DNA of 64,000 nt from an uncultured Psychroserpens sp. GTDB taxonomy: Bacteria > Bacteroidota > Bacteroidia > Flavobacteriales > Flavobacteriaceae. Where the stretch lies: NCBI RefSeq assembly GCF_947503375.1, contig NZ_CANNDQ010000005.1:186001-250000 (forward strand), read 5' to 3'. This document shows, piece after piece, positions 8,713 to 22,207 of this stretch. The stretch's first letter is position 1. Each line of letters begins with the position of its first letter. Below the pieces are notes generated by a model. It was not told where the DNA came from and did not search any database. It saw only the letters and a program-made list of their open reading frames with translations. A program made the translations under genes and the position numbers.

Positions 8713-9219
8713 TTACCATTTGGCTAGTGTTGCATTAAAAATATCTTGTGTTAAACGCTCAAATATCTCTTCATGAGCAGTATCTTTTTGTGCGCCTTGT
8801 AATAGAGCATTTCCACTATAATCGTAAAAAAAAGAGAAGCGTTGTTCAAACTCTTCGTCTGGTTCATTCTTATCATAGAATCTAACATTAACAGAAACTG
8901 TTAGTCTGTTTTGTGCTGCTGTACTATTAGCTTGAGCTGTTGTAGGAGAGATACGATAGTCTGTAATTTCACCTTCATACACTAGGTCGCCATTACTATT
9001 TGTTAGATTTAAATTGGTTTGATTAAGAATTAAATCCTGTAAGGCTAGTGTAAAATCTCTATCAAAACCAGGTTCTATTAAATTAGCCGAGTTTTGAAAA
9101 TAATTAACCTGAAAGGTTTCGATATTGTCTTTTATAGATGTTCCAGTAAATGAATATGGTCCGCAGCCATAGAATAATATTGGTAAACAAAATAAATATA
9201 GGTGTTTAAATAATCTCAT
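8713..9219 (-). CDS. lptE: LptE-family LPS-assembly lipoprotein
   Basis: 168 residues. LptE plugs the LptD barrel and helps deliver lipopolysaccharide to the outer leaflet. The N-terminus is a lipoprotein signal with Cys19 ('ILFYGCGPYSFTG'). The following 'SIKDNIETFQVNYFQNSANL' and the paired strands 'GEITDYRISPTTAQ' ... 'RLTVSVNVRFYDK' match the LptE fold seen in Bacteroidota. It overlaps the 63-residue gene upstream by one base and lies 7 bases from the TPR gene. lptD is not in the window. Confidence 0.85.
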   Translation of the reverse strand: MRLFKHLYLFCLPILFYGCGPYSFTGTSIKDNIETFQVNYFQNSANLIEPGFDRDFTLALQDLILNQTNLNLTNSNGDLVYEGEITDYRISPTTAQANSTAAQNRLTVSVNVRFYDKNEPDEEFEQRFSFFYDYSGNALLQGAQKDTAHEEIFERLTQDIFNATLAKW

Positions 9220-9410
9220 TAGTATGTATTTGGACGTTTCATTGTTATAAAAGCGTAAATCTTTCCTGCTTCAATCGTAAAAGACGTGGTAATCAAGCGA
9301 TAGCCTTGGTAATGTTTGTCGTTGATTAAATCTTCAGCCTCTTTTCTAATGGCTTCAGAACTGTTAGGTCCAAACGTCATTCTTAATCTAAATATTTCTA
9401 CTGCTTTCAT
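9219..9410 (-). CDS. Small conserved protein of unknown function
   Basis: 63 residues, no signal peptide. The sequence alternates a basic N-terminal strand ('VEIFRLRMTFGP'), a helix ('SEAIRKEAEDLINDKHYQ') and two strands ('YRLITTSFTIEAG', 'YAFITMKRP'), which suggests a small beta-alpha-beta fold. It is probably real because it sits snugly in the operon: 9 bases after the sigma54 activator and a TAATG overlap with lptE. I do not recognise the family. Confidence 0.75.
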   Translation of the reverse strand: MKAVEIFRLRMTFGPNSSEAIRKEAEDLINDKHYQGYRLITTSFTIEAGKIYAFITMKRPNTY

Positions 9411-9419
9411 AAACTTTTC

Positions 9420-10685
9420 TTAAAGATCGTATTGTTTGATTTTTCTATATAAAGTACGTTCACTAATGCCAAGTTCTGCAGCTGCTAATTTTCGTTTGCC
9501 ATTATGGCGCTCAAGTGATTTTTTTATCAACTCAAGCTCTTTGTCTTGTAAAGATAATGTTTCTTCTTCTTCAATCTCTTCAGCAAAATGGTATTTATCT
9601 TGAGAATTATCTTCTACAGTATCAATGCTTTTGCTTTCATCTGAAATAGGTAAGACCTCTAAATCTTCAATATTAGCTTCTATATGGTCATTGTCATTTG
9701 TGCCGTAAATTTTTTGAATAAGGTGCTCATTATCTTTTTGTACCTCATTTGCATTACCGCTTTTCATTAATTCCATAGTTAGCTTTTTGAGATCGTTAAG
9801 ATCATTTTTCATATCAAAAAGCACTTTATACAAAATCTCTCGTTCGTTACTAAAATCACTTTCAGTTTTTGATGTATTAATAACAGCAGGTAAATTATTC
9901 GAAGAACTTGGTAAATAACCTCTAAGGGTTTGAGCGCTTATTGTTCGGTTTTGTTCTAAGACCGAAATTTGCTCAGCAACATTTCGCAATTGCCTAATGT
10001 TTCCGTTCCAGCGGTGTTTTAATAAAATGGCTACAGCATCTTCAGTTAGCTTAATTGTTGGCATTTTGTATTTGAGCGCAAAATCGCTAGCAAATTTTCT
10101 AAATAAAAGATGGATATCTTCTTTACGCTCTCTTAGAGGCGGAATATTAATATCTATTGTGCTTAATCTGTAATACAAATCTTCACGAAACTTCTCCTTT
10201 TTTATAGCTTCAAACATGTTTACATTTGTAGCTGCGACAATTCGTACATTGGTTTTTTGTACTTTACTTGAACCCACTTTAATAAATTCGCCATTTTCTA
10301 ACACACGTAATAAGCGTACTTGTGTGGTTAATGGTAATTCTCCAACTTCATCTAAAAAAATGGTTCCGCCATCAGCTACTTCAAAGTAGCCAGAACGGGT
10401 TTGTGTTGCTCCAGTAAAGGCGCCTTTTTCGTGACCAAAAAGCTCGCTGTCTATTGTGCCTTCAGGAATGGCACCGCAATTTACAGCAATATATTTACCG
10501 TGTTTGCGGTGTGATAGTTGGTGTATGATCTTAGGAATACTTTCTTTGCCAACGCCACTTTCACCAGTAACCAATACTGAGATGTCTGTCGGTGACACCT
10601 GTATCGCTTTCTCGATAGCGCGATTTAGCTTGGCATCATTACCGATGATTCCGAAACGTTGTTTTATGGCTTGAATTGATTCCAT
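9420..10685 (-). CDS. Sigma54-interaction AAA+ activator with a Fis-type HTH
   Basis: 421 residues. It is a bacterial enhancer-binding protein that would remodel sigma54 RNA polymerase. The AAA+ domain starts almost at once (about residues 10-245) with Walker A 'GESGVGKES', the sigma54-contact loop 'GAFTGA', Walker B 'GGTIFLDEVGELP' and 'RWNGNIRQLRNVAEQ'. An acidic linker (about 300-380) leads to a Fis-type helix-turn-helix ('RKLAAAELGISERTLYRKIKQYDL'). There is no receiver, GAF or PAS sensor domain, so activity must be set by a partner or by expression level. It is co-transcribed with miaB upstream and lptE/secG downstream. Confidence 0.93.
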   Translation of the reverse strand: MESIQAIKQRFGIIGNDAKLNRAIEKAIQVSPTDISVLVTGESGVGKESIPKIIHQLSHRKHGKYIAVNCGAIPEGTIDSELFGHEKGAFTGATQTRSGYFEVADGGTIFLDEVGELPLTTQVRLLRVLENGEFIKVGSSKVQKTNVRIVAATNVNMFEAIKKEKFREDLYYRLSTIDINIPPLRERKEDIHLLFRKFASDFALKYKMPTIKLTEDAVAILLKHRWNGNIRQLRNVAEQISVLEQNRTISAQTLRGYLPSSSNNLPAVINTSKTESDFSNEREILYKVLFDMKNDLNDLKKLTMELMKSGNANEVQKDNEHLIQKIYGTNDNDHIEANIEDLEVLPISDESKSIDTVEDNSQDKYHFAEEIEEEETLSLQDKELELIKKSLERHNGKRKLAAAELGISERTLYRKIKQYDL

Positions 10686-10707
10686 AGTTATATCCTGCTA
10701 AGTGGTT

Positions 10708-12153
10708 TTAATTATTTTTTGAATAGCCAATAGCCTCACCAATGAGTGTTGCGCTGGTACAATCTTTTACATCTACATTAACTAAATCTCCAATATTGTA
10801 ATGTTCTTTAGGAAATACAGCAACTATATTTTGGGATGTTCTTCCAGACCATTGGTTATTAGATTTTTTTGATTCGCGTTCGATTAAAACTTCAACTGTT
10901 TTGTTAAGGTATTCTTTAGTTCGTATCTCACTATGTTCGCGTTGTAATTGAACAATTTCTGCCAAACGTCGCTTTTTAACTTCTTCAGGAACATCATCAT
11001 CCATTTTGCGTTCTGCCATGGTGCCTGGTCGTTCAGAATAGGTAAACATATAACCAAAATTATACTTCACATATTCCATGAGGCTCAAAGTATCTTGGTG
11101 GTCTTCTTCAGTTTCTGTTGGGAAACCAGCTATTAGATCTTGACTTATAGCACATTCAGGAAGAATTCGTCTAATATTATCAATGAGGTCAAAATATTCC
11201 TCTCTCGTATGTAAACGATTCATCTCTTTTAAAATTCTATTGCTTCCACTTTGAACAGGCAAATGAATGTGCTTACAAATATTATCAAATTTCGCCATGG
11301 TTTCAATTACATCCAAAGTCAGATCCTGAGGATTACTTGTAGAAAATCGAATACGCATTTTTGGTTGTGCTTTTGCGCATAATTCTAGTAATTGAGCAAA
11401 ATCAACAGCTGTTGCCTTCTGTAAATCGCTTGCTTTTTGAAAGTCCTTTTTGAGTCCACCACCATACCATAAATAACTATCAACATTCTGGCCTAAGAGT
11501 GTGATTTCCTTAAAACCTTTATTCCATAAGTTGTTTACTTCTTCGATGATACTTTGTGGATCTCTACTTCGTTCTCTTCCACGAGTAAAAGGGACTACAC
11601 AAAATGTGCACATATTATCACAACCACGAGTTATCGATACAAATGCAGTGACGCCATTACTATTTAATCGTACGGGAGAAATATCGCCATAAGTTTCTTC
11701 TTTTGAAAGAATAACATTAATAGCGTCACGACCTTCATCAACTTCTGCTAAAAGATTCGGTAAATCTTTATAGGCATCAGGTCCAACTACTAAATCAACA
11801 ATTTTTTCTTCTTCTAAAAATTTAGTTTTTAAACGTTCAGCCATACAGCCTAAAACGCCAACTTTCATTTTAGGGTTAATGCGTTTAACAGCATTGTATT
11901 TTTCAAGACGTTTTCTAACAGTTTGTTCTGCTTTATCTCTTATTGAGCATGTGTTAACTAAAACTAAATCTGCATCTTCTAACTTTTGAGTGGTATTAAA
12001 TCCTTGATCAGATAATATAGAAGCTACAATCTCGCTGTCACTAAAATTCATGGCGCAACCATAACTTTCTATAAAAAGCTTACGATTGTTACCATGTTTA
12101 GGTGTCAAAATTAGTGTTTCCCCTTGTTTATTTTCGTCTATTGTTTTTTCCAT
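10708..12153 (-). CDS. miaB: tRNA-2-methylthio-N6-isopentenyladenosine synthase MiaB
   Basis: 481 residues, usual length. MiaB is a radical-SAM enzyme that adds a methylthio group to i6A37 of tRNAs reading UNN codons. The N-terminal UPF0004 domain carries its cluster cysteines ('[12 protein letters not shown]', '[10 protein letters not shown]', 'GVLGCMAER'). The radical-SAM CxxxCxxC is '[20 protein letters not shown]', and a TRAM domain closes the protein ('[23 protein letters not shown]'). It is the first gene of the miaB-secG operon and has a good promoter upstream. Confidence 0.97.
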
Positions 12154-13723: not shown

Positions 13724-16228
13724 ATGCCGAAGAATTTAGTCATTGTAGAGTCACCAGCAAAAGCCAAAACCATAGAGAAGTTTTTAGGAAAAGATTTCAA
13801 AGTAGAGTCAAGTTTTGGTCACATTGCAGACCTGCCTTCAAAAGAATTAGGAGTTGATGTAGATGGTGATTTTAAACCCAAATATCAGGTTTCAAAAGAT
13901 AAGAAAGATGTCGTTAAGAAGTTAAAGGATTTAGCCAAAAAAGCAGAAATGGTTTGGCTCGCTAGTGATGAAGATCGTGAAGGAGAAGCTATTGCGTGGC
14001 ATTTGGCTGAAACTTTAGGGCTAGATAAATCAAAAACCAAGCGTATAGTTTTTCATGAGATCACAAAATCTGCCATAAAAAAAGCTATTGAGAACCCAAG
14101 AGGTATAGATTACGATTTAGTTGACGCACAACAAGCTCGCCGCGTGTTAGACAGAATAGTAGGTTATGAGTTATCTCCAGTACTTTGGAGAAAAGTAAAA
14201 GGAGGTTTGTCTGCAGGTCGAGTCCAATCAGTATCAGTACGTTTGATAGTTGAACGAGAACGAGAAATTAATGAGTTCAATGCTGAAGCGTCTTTTAGAA
14301 TAGATGCTGAGTTTTCAAATGAGAACGGACAAACATTCAAGGCAAAACTTCCTAAGAATTTTTCGTCAAGAGAAGATGCTTACGGCTTTTTGGAGTCTAA
14401 TATTAACGCAAGCTTTAAAGTTTCAGATTTAGAAAAAAAACCAGCTAAGAAATCGCCAGCAGCACCATTTACAACATCTACAATGCAGCAAGAGGCTTCA
14501 AGAAAATTAGGATTTTCAGTAAGTAGAACAATGAGTAATGCGCAGCGGTTGTATGAAGCAGGACTTATTACTTACATGAGAACTGATAGTGTAAATCTAT
14601 CTGATGAAGCACGAAAAGGAGCGCAAGCTGCAATAGAAAGCGCTTACGGTTCAGAGTTTAGTAAACCTAGAAATTATAAGGGTAAATCTAAAGGGGCTCA
14701 AGAAGCGCATGAGGCAATACGCCCTACAGATTTTTCTAGACATTCTGTTAACGTAGAGCGAGACCAAGCACGTTTATACGATTTGATTTGGAAGCGCGCT
14801 ATAGCTTCACAAATGAGTGAAGCAAAATTAGAGCGAACCAATATTAAAATTAGTGCCTCTACTCATAGCAACACTTTCACTGCTAGTGGAGAAGTAATTA
14901 CTTTTGAAGGTTTTTTAAAAGTTTACCTTGAAGGTACTGATGACGAAGATACAGAACAAGAAGGAATGTTGCCTGCTATGCAAATAGATGAAGTTTTGTT
15001 GAATAATTACATCACAGCTACACAACGCTTTTCAAGACCTCCTTACAGATATACCGAAGCTTCTTTGGTTAAGAAGTTAGAAGAGTTAGGTATTGGTCGT
15101 CCTTCTACCTATGCACCAACAATTTCAACGATTCAAAATAGAAATTATATAGAAAAAGGTTCTAACGAAGGCGTTGAAAGAGATTACGTCCAGTTAATAC
15201 TTCAAAATAGTGGAATCAAAGATCATACGCTTACAGAAAAAGTTAACAGTGATAAAGGTAAATTGATACCAACAGATATTGGTATGATCGTAACAGATTT
15301 TTTGGTCAATCACTTCGGAAGTATTTTAGACTATAATTTTACAGCTAAAGTTGAAGCCGATTTTGACGAAATTGCTGAAGGTAAAGAAGATTGGACTAAA
15401 ATGATGAAAGATTTTTATAAAAGCTTTCATCCAAAAGTTGAAGATGTAGCTGCCAATGCCGAACGTGAATCAGGAGAGCGAATTCTTGGTACAGACCCTA
15501 AAACAGGTAAGCAGGTAAGTGTAAGGTTAGGTAAATTTGGACCAATGGTACAAATAGGAACTGTTGATGATGAGGAAAAGCCTCAGTTCGCAAGTCTTTC
15601 CCCTGACCAACAATTAACAACCATTACTTATGAAGAAGCAATGGAATTGTTTAAATTGCCAAAGCAATTAGGCACTTATGAAGGGGAAGTAATTGAAGTT
15701 AATAACGGTCGTTTCGGACCATATGTTAAATTTGGAAAAAAATTCGTATCACTTCCAGCCGGAACAAACCCAATTGACGTAGAAATGAACCAAGCTATTG
15801 AACTCATAAAAGAGAAGCAAAAAGCAGATGCTCCTATATATATGTATCAGGATTTACCTGTTCAAAAAGGGAAAGGACGATTTGGACCATTCATTAAATG
15901 GAACAACATGTTTATCAACGTCAATAAAAAATACGATTGGGACAATTTGTCTGATACAGATATTGTAGAATTGATTGAAGATAAAATTCAGAAAGAAAAA
16001 GATAAGTTGATTCATCATTGGGAAGATGAAGGTATTCGTATTGAGAAAGCTAGATGGGGAAGACATCATATTATTAAAGGGAAAGTAAAAGTTGAGTTGC
16101 CAAAGACTGTTGATGTTTCTGATATGACTTTAGAGGAAGCTCAAGCTGAAATAGAAAAGAAGGCGCCAAAGAAAAAAGCGACAACCAAAAAAAGAACCAC
16201 CAAAAAGAAAACTACTACTAAAAAATAA
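13724..16228 (+). CDS. topA: DNA topoisomerase I (type IA)
   Basis: 834 residues. It relaxes negative supercoils by cutting and resealing one strand. The N-terminal Toprim domain has 'VIVESPAKAKTIEKFLG' and the acidic 'ASDEDREGEAIAWH'; the active-site tyrosine is in 'GLITYMRTDSVNLS'. The C-terminal part carries repeated 'GRFGPYVKFG'-type modules (three copies) instead of cysteine zinc fingers and ends in a Lys/Thr-rich tail ('KKKATTKKRTTKKKTTTKK') that probably binds DNA. The downstream arginase-fold gene begins 6 bases after the stop, so they share a transcript. Confidence 0.98.
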   Translation: MPKNLVIVESPAKAKTIEKFLGKDFKVESSFGHIADLPSKELGVDVDGDFKPKYQVSKDKKDVVKKLKDLAKKAEMVWLASDEDREGEAIAWHLAETLGLDKSKTKRIVFHEITKSAIKKAIENPRGIDYDLVDAQQARRVLDRIVGYELSPVLWRKVKGGLSAGRVQSVSVRLIVEREREINEFNAEASFRIDAEFSNENGQTFKAKLPKNFSSREDAYGFLESNINASFKVSDLEKKPAKKSPAAPFTTSTMQQEASRKLGFSVSRTMSNAQRLYEAGLITYMRTDSVNLSDEARKGAQAAIESAYGSEFSKPRNYKGKSKGAQEAHEAIRPTDFSRHSVNVERDQARLYDLIWKRAIASQMSEAKLERTNIKISASTHSNTFTASGEVITFEGFLKVYLEGTDDEDTEQEGMLPAMQIDEVLLNNYITATQRFSRPPYRYTEASLVKKLEELGIGRPSTYAPTISTIQNRNYIEKGSNEGVERDYVQLILQNSGIKDHTLTEKVNSDKGKLIPTDIGMIVTDFLVNHFGSILDYNFTAKVEADFDEIAEGKEDWTKMMKDFYKSFHPKVEDVAANAERESGERILGTDPKTGKQVSVRLGKFGPMVQIGTVDDEEKPQFASLSPDQQLTTITYEEAMELFKLPKQLGTYEGEVIEVNNGRFGPYVKFGKKFVSLPAGTNPIDVEMNQAIELIKEKQKADAPIYMYQDLPVQKGKGRFGPFIKWNNMFINVNKKYDWDNLSDTDIVELIEDKIQKEKDKLIHHWEDEGIRIEKARWGRHHIIKGKVKVELPKTVDVSDMTLEEAQAEIEKKAPKKKATTKKRTTKKKTTTKK

Positions 16229-16234
16229 ATTTTA

Positions 16235-17401
16235 ATGAATTTTAATTTTTTGTCTCCTGTCTCAGATTCAGTATTAGCTCATAACGAGCTATTGTCTGAA
16301 CAAGCGCTTGGCAAAAGAATAAGAATTCACTCTACACAACATGGCATACCTGACCTTGATGGTGTTAAATTAGCTATACTAGGCGTAAAAGAAAATAGGA
16401 ATGATGTTAATTATATGGGAGAAGAACTTAGTTTTGATACCATAAGAACATCCTTGTATTCTCTGTTTCCTGGAAATTGGTATACTACAATAGCAGATTT
16501 GGGAGATATTCCAGCAGGTGCTTCAACAGAAGACACTTATTATGCAGTACGTACGCTAATTTCAGTTTTAATTGAAAACAGAGTAATACCAATTATACTT
16601 GGTGGAAGCCAAGATATTACCTATGCTAATTATCGTGCTTATGATACCATGGCTCCAATGGTCAATATTGTCAATGTAGATAGTAATTTTGATCTTGGAG
16701 ACGCATCGGTTGAAATGAAGAATAATAGCTTTTTGGGTAAAATTATATTAGAGCAACCATACAATCTATTCAATTACTCTGCAATTGGATATCAAACCTA
16801 TTTTAATTCTCAAGAAGAAATTGACTTGATGGAGAAGTTGTATTTTGAGGCATACAGATTAGGAGAGATTACGCATAATATTAATATGGTTGAACCTGTA
16901 ATGCGTGATGCTCATATTGTTACTATGGATTTAAAGTCTGTACGAGCAGCAGAAGTTGGTGCTAAGCAAAAATATTCACCAAACGGATTTGACGGGAAAG
17001 AGATTTGTACAATTTCAAGGTATGCTGGCATTAGTAATAAAGTATCTTCTTTTGGTATTTATGAGTATAAAACTACCAACGAGTTAGAAGCAACACCAAT
17101 GTTAATTTCGCAAATGATATGGTATTTCATTGAAGGAGTCAATTGTCGAGTAGAGGATGACGATTTTAATAATGAAGATAATTACCAAAAGTATAATGTT
17201 TTAATAGAAGATGAGGAGTTGATTTTCTATAAAAGTATTAAAACGGGACGTTGGTGGATTGAAATACCTTTTTTACCAAATGTTAATAATAAATTAAAAA
17301 AGCACACGTTATTACCTTGCACGCATGAAGATTATATTGAAGCAAGCCATGGTAAGATACCAGAAAGATGGTATAAAGCGTATAAAAAGAACAGTTTTTA
17401 G
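16235..17401 (+). CDS. Arginase/formiminoglutamase-fold protein lacking the metal ligands
   Basis: 388 residues. The central part (about 60-330) follows the ureohydrolase fold, and database labels for such proteins are usually 'formimidoylglutamase'. The metal-binding motifs are broken. The GGDHS-type motif reads 'GGSQD' (His to Gln), DAHxD reads 'DSNFD' (His to Asn), and the DxDxxDP motif reads 'MDLKSVRAAE' (second Asp to Lys). A dimanganese centre is therefore unlikely. It lies 6 bases after topA and just upstream of gldK. I infer a non-catalytic structural or binding role, possibly tied to the T9SS by position only. Confidence 0.8.
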   Translation: MNFNFLSPVSDSVLAHNELLSEQALGKRIRIHSTQHGIPDLDGVKLAILGVKENRNDVNYMGEELSFDTIRTSLYSLFPGNWYTTIADLGDIPAGASTEDTYYAVRTLISVLIENRVIPIILGGSQDITYANYRAYDTMAPMVNIVNVDSNFDLGDASVEMKNNSFLGKIILEQPYNLFNYSAIGYQTYFNSQEEIDLMEKLYFEAYRLGEITHNINMVEPVMRDAHIVTMDLKSVRAAEVGAKQKYSPNGFDGKEICTISRYAGISNKVSSFGIYEYKTTNELEATPMLISQMIWYFIEGVNCRVEDDDFNNEDNYQKYNVLIEDEELIFYKSIKTGRWWIEIPFLPNVNNKLKKHTLLPCTHEDYIEASHGKIPERWYKAYKKNSF

Positions 17402-17421
17402 TATATTCATGGTCTAAAATT

Positions 17422-17457
17422 TTAACATTGTTTTAATCGATGAAATGTTAAGTTTTT
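17422..17457 (+). terminator. Probable terminator after the arginase-fold gene
   Basis: TTAACATT / AATGTTAA arms with a 14-base loop are followed by a short T-run. It is AT-rich and weaker than the other terminators in the window. Confidence 0.4.
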
Positions 17458-17488
17458 AGGATAAAGTGTCAAAAAACTTAAAAAAAAA

Positions 17489-17519
17489 TTGTTTTTTACA
17501 AAATATATGGATATGTTTA
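17489..17519 (+). promoter_or_regulatory. Candidate gldKLMN promoter
   Basis: TTG, 20 bases, then TATGTTTA: seven of eight positions match TAnnTTTG. It lies 57 bases upstream of gldK in an otherwise empty 175-base gap. Confidence 0.55.
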
Positions 17520-17576
17520 CTGCCTTAAAAAAATTAAGTATACAATTACAACTAAATAATTTAACCTCGAGTTTCT

Positions 17577-18947
17577 ATGAATATTAAGAAGTTTGCTTTA
17601 TTAACCGCTGTTTTAGCTCTATTGGTCAGTTGTGGCTCTGGTGACAGAGGAGAACTGGTTGGAGTTAGAGGAAAGAAATGGCATCCAGAAAAACCATATG
17701 GTATGACACTTGTTCCTGGAGGAGCATTTATTATGGGTAAATCTGATGATGACCTTGCAGGTGTGCAGGACGCACCTACACGTACAGTTACTGTAAGAGC
17801 GTTTTACATGGATGAAACTGAAATTACAAATAGTGAATACCGCGAGTTTGTATATTGGGTTCGAGATTCTATCTTAAGAACTAAACTTGCCATTTTAGCC
17901 GATGAAATTGGTGAAACTCCAGGAAGTGGAGGTATTGGAGAGTTTGCGTTCAATGATGCTGATCCAGAAAACATGTCTGTGTATGAAAAATACATGTATG
18001 ATAACTATAGTGGTCTAGGACCAACTGGTTATGAAGGTAGGAAACTAAATCGCGAAGTTGATTTAATTTTTGATACCGCAGATTATCCAGATGAATATTA
18101 CGCAGAAGTGATGGATACTATGTATCTTCCAATTGAAGAATCATACAACGGTCAACGCACTTGGGATGTAACTAAATTTAAGTTTCAGTACCAGTATATG
18201 GATATCCAAAAAGCTGCTAAAGATCGTAATTTAAGACGTAGAGATGTTATTATCACTGAAGAGATTGAAGTGTATCCTGACACTACGGCTTGGATTAGAG
18301 ATTTTTCTTACTCGTATAATGAGCCAATGCACAACGATTACTTCTGGCACGATGCTTATGGAGATTACCCAGTTGTAGGTGTATCTTGGAAACAAGCAAA
18401 TGCATTTTGTCAATGGAGAACATTGAAAAAGAATATCTATCAAAAAGAAAAAGGAAGACAATTTGTTAATAAGTTTAGATTGCCTTCTGAAGCAGAATGG
18501 GAATATGCAGCAAGAGGAGGTCTTCAAGGAGCTACATTCCCTTGGGGCGGACCGTATGCTAAAAATGACAGAGGTTGTTTTATGGCCAACTTTAAACCTT
18601 TAAGAGGTGATTATGCTGCAGATCAAGCACTCTACACTGTAGAAGCTGATGCTTATGAGCCAAATGATTTTGATTTATATAACATGGCTGGTAATGTTTC
18701 AGAGTGGGTGCAAGGCTCTTATGATCCAGCATCTTATGAATATTCAGCTTCATTCAACCCAACCGTGAATGATCCAGATAACGAACGTAAAGTCGTTCGT
18801 GGAGGTTCATGGAAAGATGTTGCGTATTTCTTACAAGTTAGCTCAAGGGATTATGAGTATGCAGATTCAGCAAGAAGTTACATAGGTTTTAGAACTGTTC
18901 AAGATTATATGGGAACAGAAGTAACACAAAACGCAGCAACTAACTAA
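17577..18947 (+). CDS. gldK: GldK, T9SS/gliding ring lipoprotein
   Basis: 456 residues. GldK with GldN forms the periplasmic ring tied to the outer membrane in the type IX secretion system. It starts with a lipoprotein signal (Cys19 in 'LALLVSCGSGD') and carries an FGE-sulfatase-like C-type lectin fold. Marks of that fold are 'GMTLVPGGAFIMGKS', 'MDETEITNSEYREFVYW', 'RLPSEAEWEYAARGG' and 'VVRGGSWKD...SRDYEYADSARSYIGFRTV'. It is first in the gldKLMN operon and has its own promoter. Confidence 0.97.
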   Translation: MNIKKFALLTAVLALLVSCGSGDRGELVGVRGKKWHPEKPYGMTLVPGGAFIMGKSDDDLAGVQDAPTRTVTVRAFYMDETEITNSEYREFVYWVRDSILRTKLAILADEIGETPGSGGIGEFAFNDADPENMSVYEKYMYDNYSGLGPTGYEGRKLNREVDLIFDTADYPDEYYAEVMDTMYLPIEESYNGQRTWDVTKFKFQYQYMDIQKAAKDRNLRRRDVIITEEIEVYPDTTAWIRDFSYSYNEPMHNDYFWHDAYGDYPVVGVSWKQANAFCQWRTLKKNIYQKEKGRQFVNKFRLPSEAEWEYAARGGLQGATFPWGGPYAKNDRGCFMANFKPLRGDYAADQALYTVEADAYEPNDFDLYNMAGNVSEWVQGSYDPASYEYSASFNPTVNDPDNERKVVRGGSWKDVAYFLQVSSRDYEYADSARSYIGFRTVQDYMGTEVTQNAATN

Positions 18948-19019: not shown

Positions 19020-19652
19020 ATGGCACAGAAAGGAAACATCACAATCACAAACATGGTCTACGGATTAGGAGCGGCAATCGTAATTGTTGGGGCTTTATTT
19101 AAAATCCAGCACTGGCCTTATGGTTCTGAAATTTTAACCGTAGGTATGATTGTAGAGGCCTTGGTATTTACATATTCAGCTTTTGAAAGACAACAATCAG
19201 AATTAGATTGGTCATTAGTATATCCTGAATTAGCAGGAGGGATGACTTCAACTAAGAAGAAAAAAGAAGAGCCTAAGGACGCAGAAGGATTATTATCTAA
19301 AAAATTAGATAACCTCTTAAAAGAAGCAAAAATTGACGGTGAGTTAATGGCAAGTCTTGGAGATAGTATTAAAAACTTTGAAGGTGCAGCGAAAGGAATC
19401 AGTCCTACAGTTGACGCTATGAATGCACAAAAGAAATACAGTGAAGAAATGTCTTTAGCTGCAGCTCAAATGGAATCGTTAAATAGCCTTTACAAAGTTC
19501 AAATGGAAAGTGCTAATCGTCAAGCAGCTATTAATGAGGAAGCTGTTGAAAATGCAACTAAGTTAAAAGAACAAATGCAATCTCTAGCATCTAACCTTTC
19601 ATCATTAAATGGTGTTTATGGTGGCATGTTATCTGCAATGAACAAAAACTAA
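19020..19652 (+). CDS. gldL: GldL, inner-membrane motor subunit of T9SS/gliding
   Basis: 210 residues. GldL and GldM form a proton-driven rotary motor. Two transmembrane helices occupy about residues 12-30 and 36-56 ('GLGAAIVIVGALFKIQHW', 'TVGMIVEALVFTYSAFE'). Within or beside them are a Tyr, a Lys, a His and a Glu of the kind known to be required in the F. johnsoniae protein. The remaining cytoplasmic part is a long helix/coiled coil. It lies 72 bases after gldK and 51 bases before gldM. Confidence 0.97.
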   Translation: MAQKGNITITNMVYGLGAAIVIVGALFKIQHWPYGSEILTVGMIVEALVFTYSAFERQQSELDWSLVYPELAGGMTSTKKKKEEPKDAEGLLSKKLDNLLKEAKIDGELMASLGDSIKNFEGAAKGISPTVDAMNAQKKYSEEMSLAAAQMESLNSLYKVQMESANRQAAINEEAVENATKLKEQMQSLASNLSSLNGVYGGMLSAMNKN

Positions 19653-19703: not shown

Positions 19704-21266
19704 ATGGCAGGAGGAAAATTATCTGCAAGACAGAAAATGATTAACTTGATGTACTTGGTCTTCATCGCGATGATGGCTATGAATATGTCAAAAGAAGTAC
19801 TATCCGCTTTTGGTTTGATGGAAGCAAAGTTTGCTGATTCAAACGCATTAACTAGTGAGCGAAATGAAGCATTACTAGCCGATCTTGATAAAAAATCTGA
19901 AGAAAAGCCTGAAGATTTCATGATTCCAGCAGCTAAAGCAAAAGAAGTTAGTGCGGCATCAGATAAATTTTATAGATATATCGAAACTTTAAAGAATGAC
20001 CTTCTTAAGCAAGGCGACTATAAAATTGACCCTGAAACCGGTAAATTACCTTTCGAGGCAATGGATAAAACAGATATCCTTGATGAAGCATGGTTTACAG
20101 GTGATAGAATGACCAAAAAAGGTCAGGAAGTTATGTCTAAAATAGAAGAGTATAAATCTGAAATTAGAAGAATACTAGGAAAGGATATAAAAGCTCAAAA
20201 AGTTTTAGCAAATTTTGACAAAACGTTCAGTACTGAAAAAGTAGAAAATAAAGACGGTAAGAAGATAGACTGGTTAGATTACCATTTCAAAGGATTCCCA
20301 GCTATTGCTTCTTTTACTAAGTTAACAGCATTCCAAAACGATGTTGAGGTAACTGAGGCTAACATTATTAACTACTATTTAGGTAATGTTTTAACTGATG
20401 CAGTATCTTTAGATAAGTATAAAGCTATCATTTTAGCTGATAAGTCAGCATTTTTCGCAGGTGAAAAATTCCAAGGAAGAGTAGTGATTGGTAAATATGC
20501 AAAAGTGCCACCAACAGGATTAAGCATTGGAGGTCAAGCTATTGATTTAAATGAGGCGATTGACTCTACTGGAGCTGCGCGTTTAGATTTTAACGTTGGT
20601 GGTGTAGGTGAACATGAAATCGATGGTACATTTACTTTTATGGAAGATGGAAAGCCATTAGAGATCCCTATCAAAGGTAACTATGTAGTAGTACCAAGAC
20701 CAAATTCAGCAACTATTTCTGCAGACAAGATGAATGTAGTGTATCGTGGAGTTGTAAATCCAATGACCATATCGTTTGCCGGTGTACCAGACAATAAAGT
20801 TTCTGCTACTGGAGCTGGTTTGAAAAAAGGTTCTGGAATGGGTAAATATACTATGGTGCCAACATCTGGAAGAGAAGTAACTATTAATGTAACAGCAACA
20901 TTAGATGACGGTTCTAAAGTAAGTGATAAAGCTATATTTAGAATTAAAGATATTCCTAAACCAACAGGTAAACTTAATGGACAGAGTGAAGGTAAACTTC
21001 CTAGAAATAATGTAGAAATTGGTAAAGTAGAATCAGTATTAGAAGATTTCGATTTTGACTTACCATTAACTGTAACAAGCTTCAAAATTAAAGTACCAGG
21101 ACAACCATCTGTAACCTGTTCTGGAAACAGATTGAATGGAACAGCTAAAGGTGCTTTACGTAAAGCGAAGCGAGGAGCTGCAATTCAAATCTTTGATATC
21201 AAGGCTAGAAGTAATGGTCCAATTATCAAACCAGCAACTCCAGTTGTTATCGAGTTATCTAATTAA
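19704..21266 (+). CDS. gldM: GldM, periplasm-spanning motor subunit of T9SS/gliding
   Basis: 520 residues. A single N-terminal transmembrane helix ('MINLMYLVFIAMMAMNMS', about 12-30) inserts in the GldL ring. A helical first domain (to about 220) is followed by three beta-rich domains that reach across the periplasm to GldK/GldN. Length and start 'MAGGKLSARQKMINLMYLVFIAMMA' are characteristic. Third gene of the operon. Confidence 0.98.
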   Translation: MAGGKLSARQKMINLMYLVFIAMMAMNMSKEVLSAFGLMEAKFADSNALTSERNEALLADLDKKSEEKPEDFMIPAAKAKEVSAASDKFYRYIETLKNDLLKQGDYKIDPETGKLPFEAMDKTDILDEAWFTGDRMTKKGQEVMSKIEEYKSEIRRILGKDIKAQKVLANFDKTFSTEKVENKDGKKIDWLDYHFKGFPAIASFTKLTAFQNDVEVTEANIINYYLGNVLTDAVSLDKYKAIILADKSAFFAGEKFQGRVVIGKYAKVPPTGLSIGGQAIDLNEAIDSTGAARLDFNVGGVGEHEIDGTFTFMEDGKPLEIPIKGNYVVVPRPNSATISADKMNVVYRGVVNPMTISFAGVPDNKVSATGAGLKKGSGMGKYTMVPTSGREVTINVTATLDDGSKVSDKAIFRIKDIPKPTGKLNGQSEGKLPRNNVEIGKVESVLEDFDFDLPLTVTSFKIKVPGQPSVTCSGNRLNGTAKGALRKAKRGAAIQIFDIKARSNGPIIKPATPVVIELSN

Positions 21267-21307: not shown

Positions 21308-22207
21308 ATGAATTATAAATTTTTATTATCAATAATTGCCACTATTAGTATTACATCTAGTATACATTCTCAGGCAAATATTTTAAATGCGCAAACACCA
21401 CAAGAAATTGGTGTTAAAACCGAAGCACAGTTGGCGCTTGATAATGACAAGCCTTTGGAGTATGGCTATGTTGATGATAGAGACATACTGTTCTCTAAAA
21501 TGACTTGGGAAAAAGTTGTTTTAGATGAGCGTGTTAACTTTCCGTTATATTTCCCTGTTGACACTAATAATATTGGCAAGGAAAGACGCTCGCTTTATCA
21601 TACATTGATTAAAGCTGTCAAAGATGGAAAAATCACAAATGTTTATAATGATTCTTACTTTACTGAGAAAAGAACAATGAAGGAGCTTAAAGACATCACA
21701 ACTAAGGTTGATACTTTAGATATTGGTTATGACCAATTAAATGCTGATGGTTATGTAGATCCTGAGTATATCACAACGAGAAATATAGAAGCATTTGATA
21801 TTAGTGCATATTTAGTAAAAGGGCTTTGGTACTTTGACAAGCGTCATGGCGAACTCAAATATAGAGTATTAGGTATTGCACCAGCTGCACCAGATATTAA
21901 CTTTATCGATTCTAATGATGAAGCTAATAGAGTGCCTAATGCATTATTTTGGGTATTTTTCCCAGAAGCAAGAGAAGTGCTTCACCAAGCTAAAGCATTT
22001 AATAATAAAAATAGTGCTATGCCATTATCATTTGACCATTTGTTAAACTCAAGACGTTTTAATGGGTACATGTATAAAGAAGAAAACGTATATGGAGATC
22101 GTGAAGTCAAAGAATATGTTGCAGATAACGCTTTGATGCAATTGCTTGAGTCTGATCGTATTAAGGATAAAATACGCAACTTTGAACAAGATATGTGGTC
22201 TTACTAA
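21308..22207 (+). CDS. gldN: GldN, T9SS ring protein
   Basis: 299 residues with a signal peptide (cleavage near 'SIHSQANIL'). GldN joins GldK in the ring that couples the motor to the outer-membrane translocon. Family features include 'YGYVDDRDILFSKMTWEKVVLDERVNFPLYFP' and 'DALFWVFFPEAREVLHQ'-like segments, here 'NALFWVFFPEAREVLHQ'. It lies 41 bases after gldM and ends the operon; a strong terminator follows 16 bases later. Confidence 0.97.
   Translation: MNYKFLLSIIATISITSSIHSQANILNAQTPQEIGVKTEAQLALDNDKPLEYGYVDDRDILFSKMTWEKVVLDERVNFPLYFPVDTNNIGKERRSLYHTLIKAVKDGKITNVYNDSYFTEKRTMKELKDITTKVDTLDIGYDQLNADGYVDPEYITTRNIEAFDISAYLVKGLWYFDKRHGELKYRVLGIAPAAPDINFIDSNDEANRVPNALFWVFFPEAREVLHQAKAFNNKNSAMPLSFDHLLNSRRFNGYMYKEENVYGDREVKEYVADNALMQLLESDRIKDKIRNFEQDMWSY

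Follow-up and report, generated by a model that had tools for sequence, protein, structure and literature searches.

The gene lying between topA and gldK in the window (the whole stretch of 64,000 nucleotides analysed here), which we call ARGL, probably encodes a ureohydrolase-superfamily pseudoenzyme of the cytoplasm, derived from a HutG-type formimidoylglutamase, that has lost the MnB half of its metal centre, has gained a C-terminal module and works by binding. In the same explanation, taken jointly and at the same strength, topA-ARGL-porP-gldKLMN is an inherited Bacteroidia cluster. The observations on which this reading is built are the fold (as modelled), the ligand losses, the monophyly and conservation of the family, the gene architecture and the presence of the C-terminal module.

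A ureohydrolase fold with an altered metal site

The gene and its surroundings in the window are as follows.

13724..16228, + strand: topA (DNA topoisomerase I), with 6 bp between its stop codon and the start of ARGL
16235..17401, + strand: ARGL (pseudo-ureohydrolase gene), an intact open reading frame of 388 aa with an ATG start
16601..16615, + strand: GGSQD motif, residues 123-127, with Gln126 at the first His ligand (MnA)
16679..16693, + strand: DSNFD motif, residues 149-153, with Asn151 replacing the second His ligand (MnB); D149 and D153 are kept
16925..16939, + strand: MDLKS motif, residues 231-235, with Lys234 replacing the second Asp (MnB); D232 is kept
17141..17398, + strand: conserved C-terminal extension, approximately residues 303-388 (about 85 aa), beyond the Pfam Arginase match
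17402..17576, + strand: intergenic gap of 175 bp between ARGL and gldK
17489-17518, + strand: promoter-like TTG-N20-TATGTTT in this gap, a consensus match only
17577..18947, + strand: gldK (type IX secretion system, T9SS, ring lipoprotein PorK/GldK), exceeding its NCBIfam cut-off
19020..19652, + strand: gldL (T9SS motor protein), by NCBIfam
19704..21266, + strand: gldM (T9SS motor protein), by NCBIfam
21308..22207, + strand: gldN (T9SS ring subunit), by NCBIfam

The placement between topA and gldK proposed in an earlier, sequence-only reading of this DNA is therefore correct, with gldL, gldM and gldN following gldK. ARGL is predicted to be cytoplasmic, as it has neither a signal peptide nor a transmembrane stretch. 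It is under purifying selection: its per-site difference from its nearest relative is 0.15 at nonsynonymous sites and 0.75 at synonymous sites, the latter being near saturation.

The ureohydrolase fold suggested in that reading, which had named structure prediction as a check, was recovered by profile and by model. The Pfam Arginase family (PF00491) matches residues 47-297 (E=2e-13), AlphaFold2 modelled the full protein with a pLDDT of 85.9 and a pTM of 0.90, and Foldseek returned ureohydrolases for this model with E down to 2.7e-16 and a query TM of about 0.6. The best of these matches were metformin hydrolase chains, and HutG and agmatinases were also found. As modelled, ARGL has the three-layer alpha/beta arginase fold by which members of the superfamily are recognised.

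The metal site itself is altered. A catalytic ureohydrolase carries six dimanganese ligands (H, D/H/D, D/D), and three of the six are replaced in ARGL when it is aligned to intact Bacteroidota HutG proteins (GGGHD / DAHFD / DLDGF) and to the agmatinase of the host genome (GGEHS / DAHAD / DLDVFD): Gln126 and Asn151 stand in place of the two His ligands, and Lys234 in place of the second Asp of DxD. D149, D153 and D232 are retained in the same alignment. The three altered motifs, and the loss of two histidines and one aspartate, are thus as they had been claimed from the sequence. In arginase numbering, what ARGL retains are MnA and bridging residues; the ligands lost family-wide, His126 and Asp234, are those specific to MnB.

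An alignment of 77 family members, made up of the protein from the window and 76 from public genome records, shows the same picture. Q126 is kept in 71/77, D127 in 77/77, D149 in 75/77, D153 in 71/77 and D232 in 77/77; position 151, that of the second His, is hypervariable, and position 234 is Ser in 63 of the 77. The MnB His and the second Asp of DxD are replaced throughout the family sample. Judged from these sequences, the site is a conserved alteration and not a random loss; chance or local decay does not suffice to explain a pattern that recurs class-wide in a gene under purifying selection. There is variation in detail between families, which are designated here by code. Most copies in families f4 and f8 keep the first His (GGSHD) and with it the full MnA quartet (GGSHD, DxxxD and the first Asp of DxD), with MnB gone. 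As a separate observation, most copies in loci L044-L062 (f4, f8 and f9) have the complete MnA set and lack the MnB ligands, and are candidates for a mononuclear site. In family f2, D149, D153 and D232 are all replaced and the gene persists.

The C-terminal extension has the consensus F...KS..T.RWW...PC..DY..A...P.RW. No Pfam family matched it, and a search of the modelled module (moderate confidence, pLDDT 79, pTM 0.64) for similar folds in the PDB gave no match, the best E being 0.92. Short homologues of 277-278 aa in family f5 are without the N-terminal half, and so without the two metal motifs it carries, and have kept the C-terminal half.

L069:8454-9284: short f5 homologue, convergent with murF and adjoining gldJ and porP
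L070:7996-8829: short f5 homologue, in the same setting

Family identity and the formimidoylglutamase label

A family match was found in 276 of 295 sampled Bacteroidia genomes, a few weak matches among these perhaps being paralogues. Outside Bacteroidia the best matches are HutG-like, with E-values of 1.9e-21 or weaker. In the tree the family is a single clade (support 100/99), set on a long stem among HutG-like proteins. Its rate of evolution is close to the slow rate of TopA, the mean distances in 27 intact clusters being 0.61 for the family and 0.58 for TopA.

ARGL nevertheless falls far below the cut-off of the hutG equivalog model (NCBIfam TIGR01227), scoring 53.9 bits against the 229 required; other members of the family score 61-92 bits, and true Bacteroidota HutG proteins 261 and 285. 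The host genome has two further arginase-fold genes, one for an agmatinase above its cut-off, the other an intact HutG-like gene whose product has all six ligands. The latter gene lies two genes from hutI (itself above cut-off), at a locus other than that of ARGL, whose neighbours are topA and gldKLMN and not genes of histidine utilisation. Since the host thus has other, intact genes for both a HutG-like protein (beside hutI) and an agmatinase, formimidoylglutamase is very probably the wrong label for ARGL, as had been suspected from its motifs.

HutG (TIGR01227; 3m1r, 1xfk, 4mxr) is the nearest known protein by profile and tree, and ARGL shares with it the ureohydrolase fold and the GG.xD and SDA-type motif context. 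Unlike HutG, ARGL has its H, H and D ligands replaced, carries the C-terminal extension and is found in no hut operon. Agmatinase SpeB and arginase (3pzl, 1wog, 3rla) have the fold in common with ARGL, but possess the intact GGDHS / DAHxD / DxDxxD motifs and the catalytic centre that it lacks. Metal-free pseudoenzymes of the arginase family are already a known kind (PMC11271267); what is new and notable in ARGL is its class-wide breadth together with the new C-terminal module.

Linkage to topA and to the T9SS genes

In the Flavobacteriaceae-type genomes of the same family that were examined (that of the window included), ARGL lies between topA and gldK. Across the class, both hits were listed for 91 genomes, and in 73 of these, representing 26 families, ARGL immediately precedes gldK or porP-gldK and lies on the same strand; the selection of these 91 favours the best-scoring GldK hits, and short contigs make the linkage counts lower bounds. 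The gap to gldK in this sample is either 0.1-0.3 kb or 1.2-1.5 kb, the longer gap holding porP in the loci inspected. Among Bacteroidales-type genomes (the order sample), gldL lies within 5 kb of ARGL in 56 of 103, again a lower bound where contigs are short. Linkage to T9SS genes thus extends to about half or more of the genomes, and the absence of such linkage from most genomes, which the sequence-only reading had named as evidence against its proposal, was not what we found.

The coupling of ARGL to topA is, however, tighter than that to gldK. Between topA and ARGL the median gap is 25 bp, and gaps of 0-10 bp are frequent (6 bp in the window), whereas between ARGL and porP or gldK the gap is never less than 70 bp and its median is about 142-146 bp. 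Where the cluster is broken, topA has remained the neighbour of ARGL in 20 loci, T9SS genes in 2. In a further 54 loci, about a third of those inspected, ARGL is linked to neither. With 6 bp separating the topA stop codon from ARGL in the window, the two genes probably form one transcript, a suggestion drawn from spacing only; the gldKLMN operon probably has its own promoter. A divergent block of genes for an LptE-like protein, a sigma-54 activator and MiaB (window 8713-12153, - strand) is kept beside topA in many loci, and the ancestral cluster was therefore larger than topA-gldK.

Some relocated copies of ARGL also have gliding genes as neighbours. They adjoin murF-gldJ-porP in the f5 loci, and lie near gldH in four f4 genomes:

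L049:6034-6543: GldH lipoprotein gene within the 18-kb locus of a relocated ARGL, with the same cluster in L051, L054 and L056

These two relocations are suggestive, but few. Overall, the linkage of ARGL to T9SS genes is real but confounded, and is much weaker evidence than its appearance suggests. The earlier hint that ARGL might be a structural part or regulator of the T9SS thus stands only in part. Conserved proximity was confirmed, but a structural role is unsupported, since the coupling to topA is tighter, a promoter-sized gap precedes the T9SS genes and about a third of loci are unlinked.

The distribution of ARGL follows that of the T9SS imperfectly. Among high-quality class genomes, ARGL is present in about 238 of 245 GldM-positive and in 2 of 8 GldM-negative genomes. 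In the order sample the figures are 103 of 137 GldL-positive against 0 of 12 GldL-negative genomes, with a nominal Fisher p of 2.5e-7 that ignores relatedness. At least 2 of these 12, the MAGs G682 and G630, look like cases of missing contigs, because GldJ matches were found in both and SprA in G630. Many genomes of the order sample have two to four GldL matches, some of which may represent paralogous GldL/GldM sets and some one split gene.

Exceptions occur in both directions, and ARGL is not a core T9SS gene in the sense of being present wherever the system is and absent where it is not. The T9SS-positive families f10, f11, f98, f107 and f66 are without ARGL, and the f10 genomes still gave no match when searched again with a profile that included the short f5 forms. 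Conversely, genome G518 (99% complete) keeps an intact ARGL with a GldK match only at the weak level of a paralogue (4.5e-27) and with no GldL, GldM or SprA match. Thus the synteny check across the class that had been suggested confirmed linkage to gldK in 26 families, but also revealed a genome that keeps ARGL with no GldK-level, GldL, GldM or SprA match, and T9SS-positive lineages without ARGL. A relative of G518 in the same genus (G002, a single contig, family f3) has gldK and gldM and no SprA match, possibly reflecting decay of the T9SS within one genus, with ARGL kept in both.

Two further signals were considered and rejected as evidence for a T9SS role. ARGL is present in 2 of 24 GldJ-negative and in about 101 of 113 GldJ-positive genomes of the order sample. 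On the GldKLM tree, however, all but two of the GldJ-negative genomes fall in a single clade within a larger one already without ARGL, and none of the 3 independent pairs is in agreement; the co-absence is thus essentially one event in which ARGL was lost before GldJ, and was not counted. Rate covariation with gldKLMN in a mirror-tree analysis (partial r 0.3-0.7) is uninformative because values of similar size were obtained for miaB and the sigma-54 activator. No paper linking formimidoylglutamase, the arginase family or topA to gldK or the T9SS was found among the open-access papers searched.

Possible roles of ARGL

One possible role, which we hold tentatively, is that of a cytoplasmic protein regulating, or accessory to, the T9SS and gliding motor. 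ARGL would then tune the assembly or activity of the motor, perhaps via a ligand in the old active-site pocket, with its C-terminal module docking on the machine, most simply on the GldL tail. The position of the gene upstream of gldK, its proximity to gldL, the co-occurrence with GldM and GldL and the relocations beside other gliding genes all speak for such a role, and the cytoplasmic domain of GldL already binds a cytoplasmic regulator, PorX (PMC10951265). PorX and ARGL would both be cytoplasmic proteins tied to the same motor, a possible functional analogy only (PMC10951265): the fold of PorX, with CheY-like and PglZ domains, is unrelated to that of ARGL, and PorX is not encoded beside gldK here. 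Against this role stand the T9SS-bearing families that lack ARGL, genome G518, the behaviour of broken clusters, the probable missing contigs among GldL-negative genomes, the single clade behind the GldJ co-absence and a covariation with gld genes no stronger than that of miaB or the sigma-54 activator. The more specific proposal that a former enzyme of histidine degradation was recruited throughout Bacteroidia as a dedicated regulator or adaptor of the rotary motor, its new C-terminal module binding the motor and its remodelled site perhaps sensing a ligand, is doubtful. A close functional tie to topA would account for the tight spacing and for a linkage that lasts even where gldKLMN has moved away. 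That ARGL serves TopA or chromosome topology, its T9SS neighbourhood being incidental, is nonetheless quite unlikely, given that copies in f3, f4, f8 and f9 are linked to neither topA nor T9SS genes and that topA is a universal housekeeping gene while ARGL can be lost; there is also no known reason at the level of the fold.

Two other alternatives concern chemistry. Conservation of D149, D153, D232, D127 and Q/H126 in most of the family, and the full MnA quartet of most f4 and f8 copies, in which the MnB ligands alone are lost, would suit an enzyme with a changed, mononuclear site of MnA-type ligands acting on an unnamed substrate. The gene persists, however, where f2 replaces three of these aspartates and where the short f5 forms dispense with the N-terminal motifs, and such an enzyme appears unlikely as a description of the family. 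ARGL might also pair, as a metal-free subunit, with an active ureohydrolase. Metformin hydrolase offers a precedent in MetCaCb (PMC11271267), and the metformin hydrolase subunit MetCb / MfmB (8x3g, 8ryi, 8snf) resembles ARGL in belonging to the ureohydrolase superfamily without a functional dimetal centre; metformin hydrolase chains are also among the best Foldseek matches. MetCb, however, pairs with an active MetCa of the same gene cluster. No active ureohydrolase adjoins ARGL in the loci inspected, sequence identity to MetCb is about 15%, and the new C-terminal extension would have to be accommodated. We therefore consider a partner subunit very unlikely.

The reading of ARGL as a binding pseudoenzyme overlaps with that of a T9SS regulator, which would also be a binding pseudoenzyme. 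ARGL would descend from a HutG-type formimidoylglutamase by a single event near the root of Bacteroidia, losing the His of DAHxD and the second Asp of DxD and so the MnB half of the dimanganese centre, keeping a remodelled pocket (Q/H126, D127, D149, D153 and D232) and gaining the C-terminal module. We infer that hydrolase activity is absent and that ARGL most likely acts by binding instead of by dimanganese hydrolysis, with the fold as its scaffold. A mononuclear metal site or other chemistry still deserves consideration, because MnA-type ligands are conserved in most branches. The C-terminal half with its extension is probably the working part of the protein and its functional surface, because it is kept where derived lineages drop the N-terminal half with the metal motifs. 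The gene would be expressed together with topA, next to a gldKLMN operon that is probably promoted separately, and the cytoplasmic tail of GldL would be the first candidate for a binding partner.

A slowly evolving, nearly class-wide gene thus carries the name of an enzyme that it very probably is not, and its annotation should not serve to infer histidine catabolism. If ARGL does regulate the motor, it would add to the T9SS and gliding a cytoplasmic component that screens have left unnamed, as far as the searched open-access literature goes. If it does not, ARGL would be a core Bacteroidia gene of unassigned function with a new C-terminal module.
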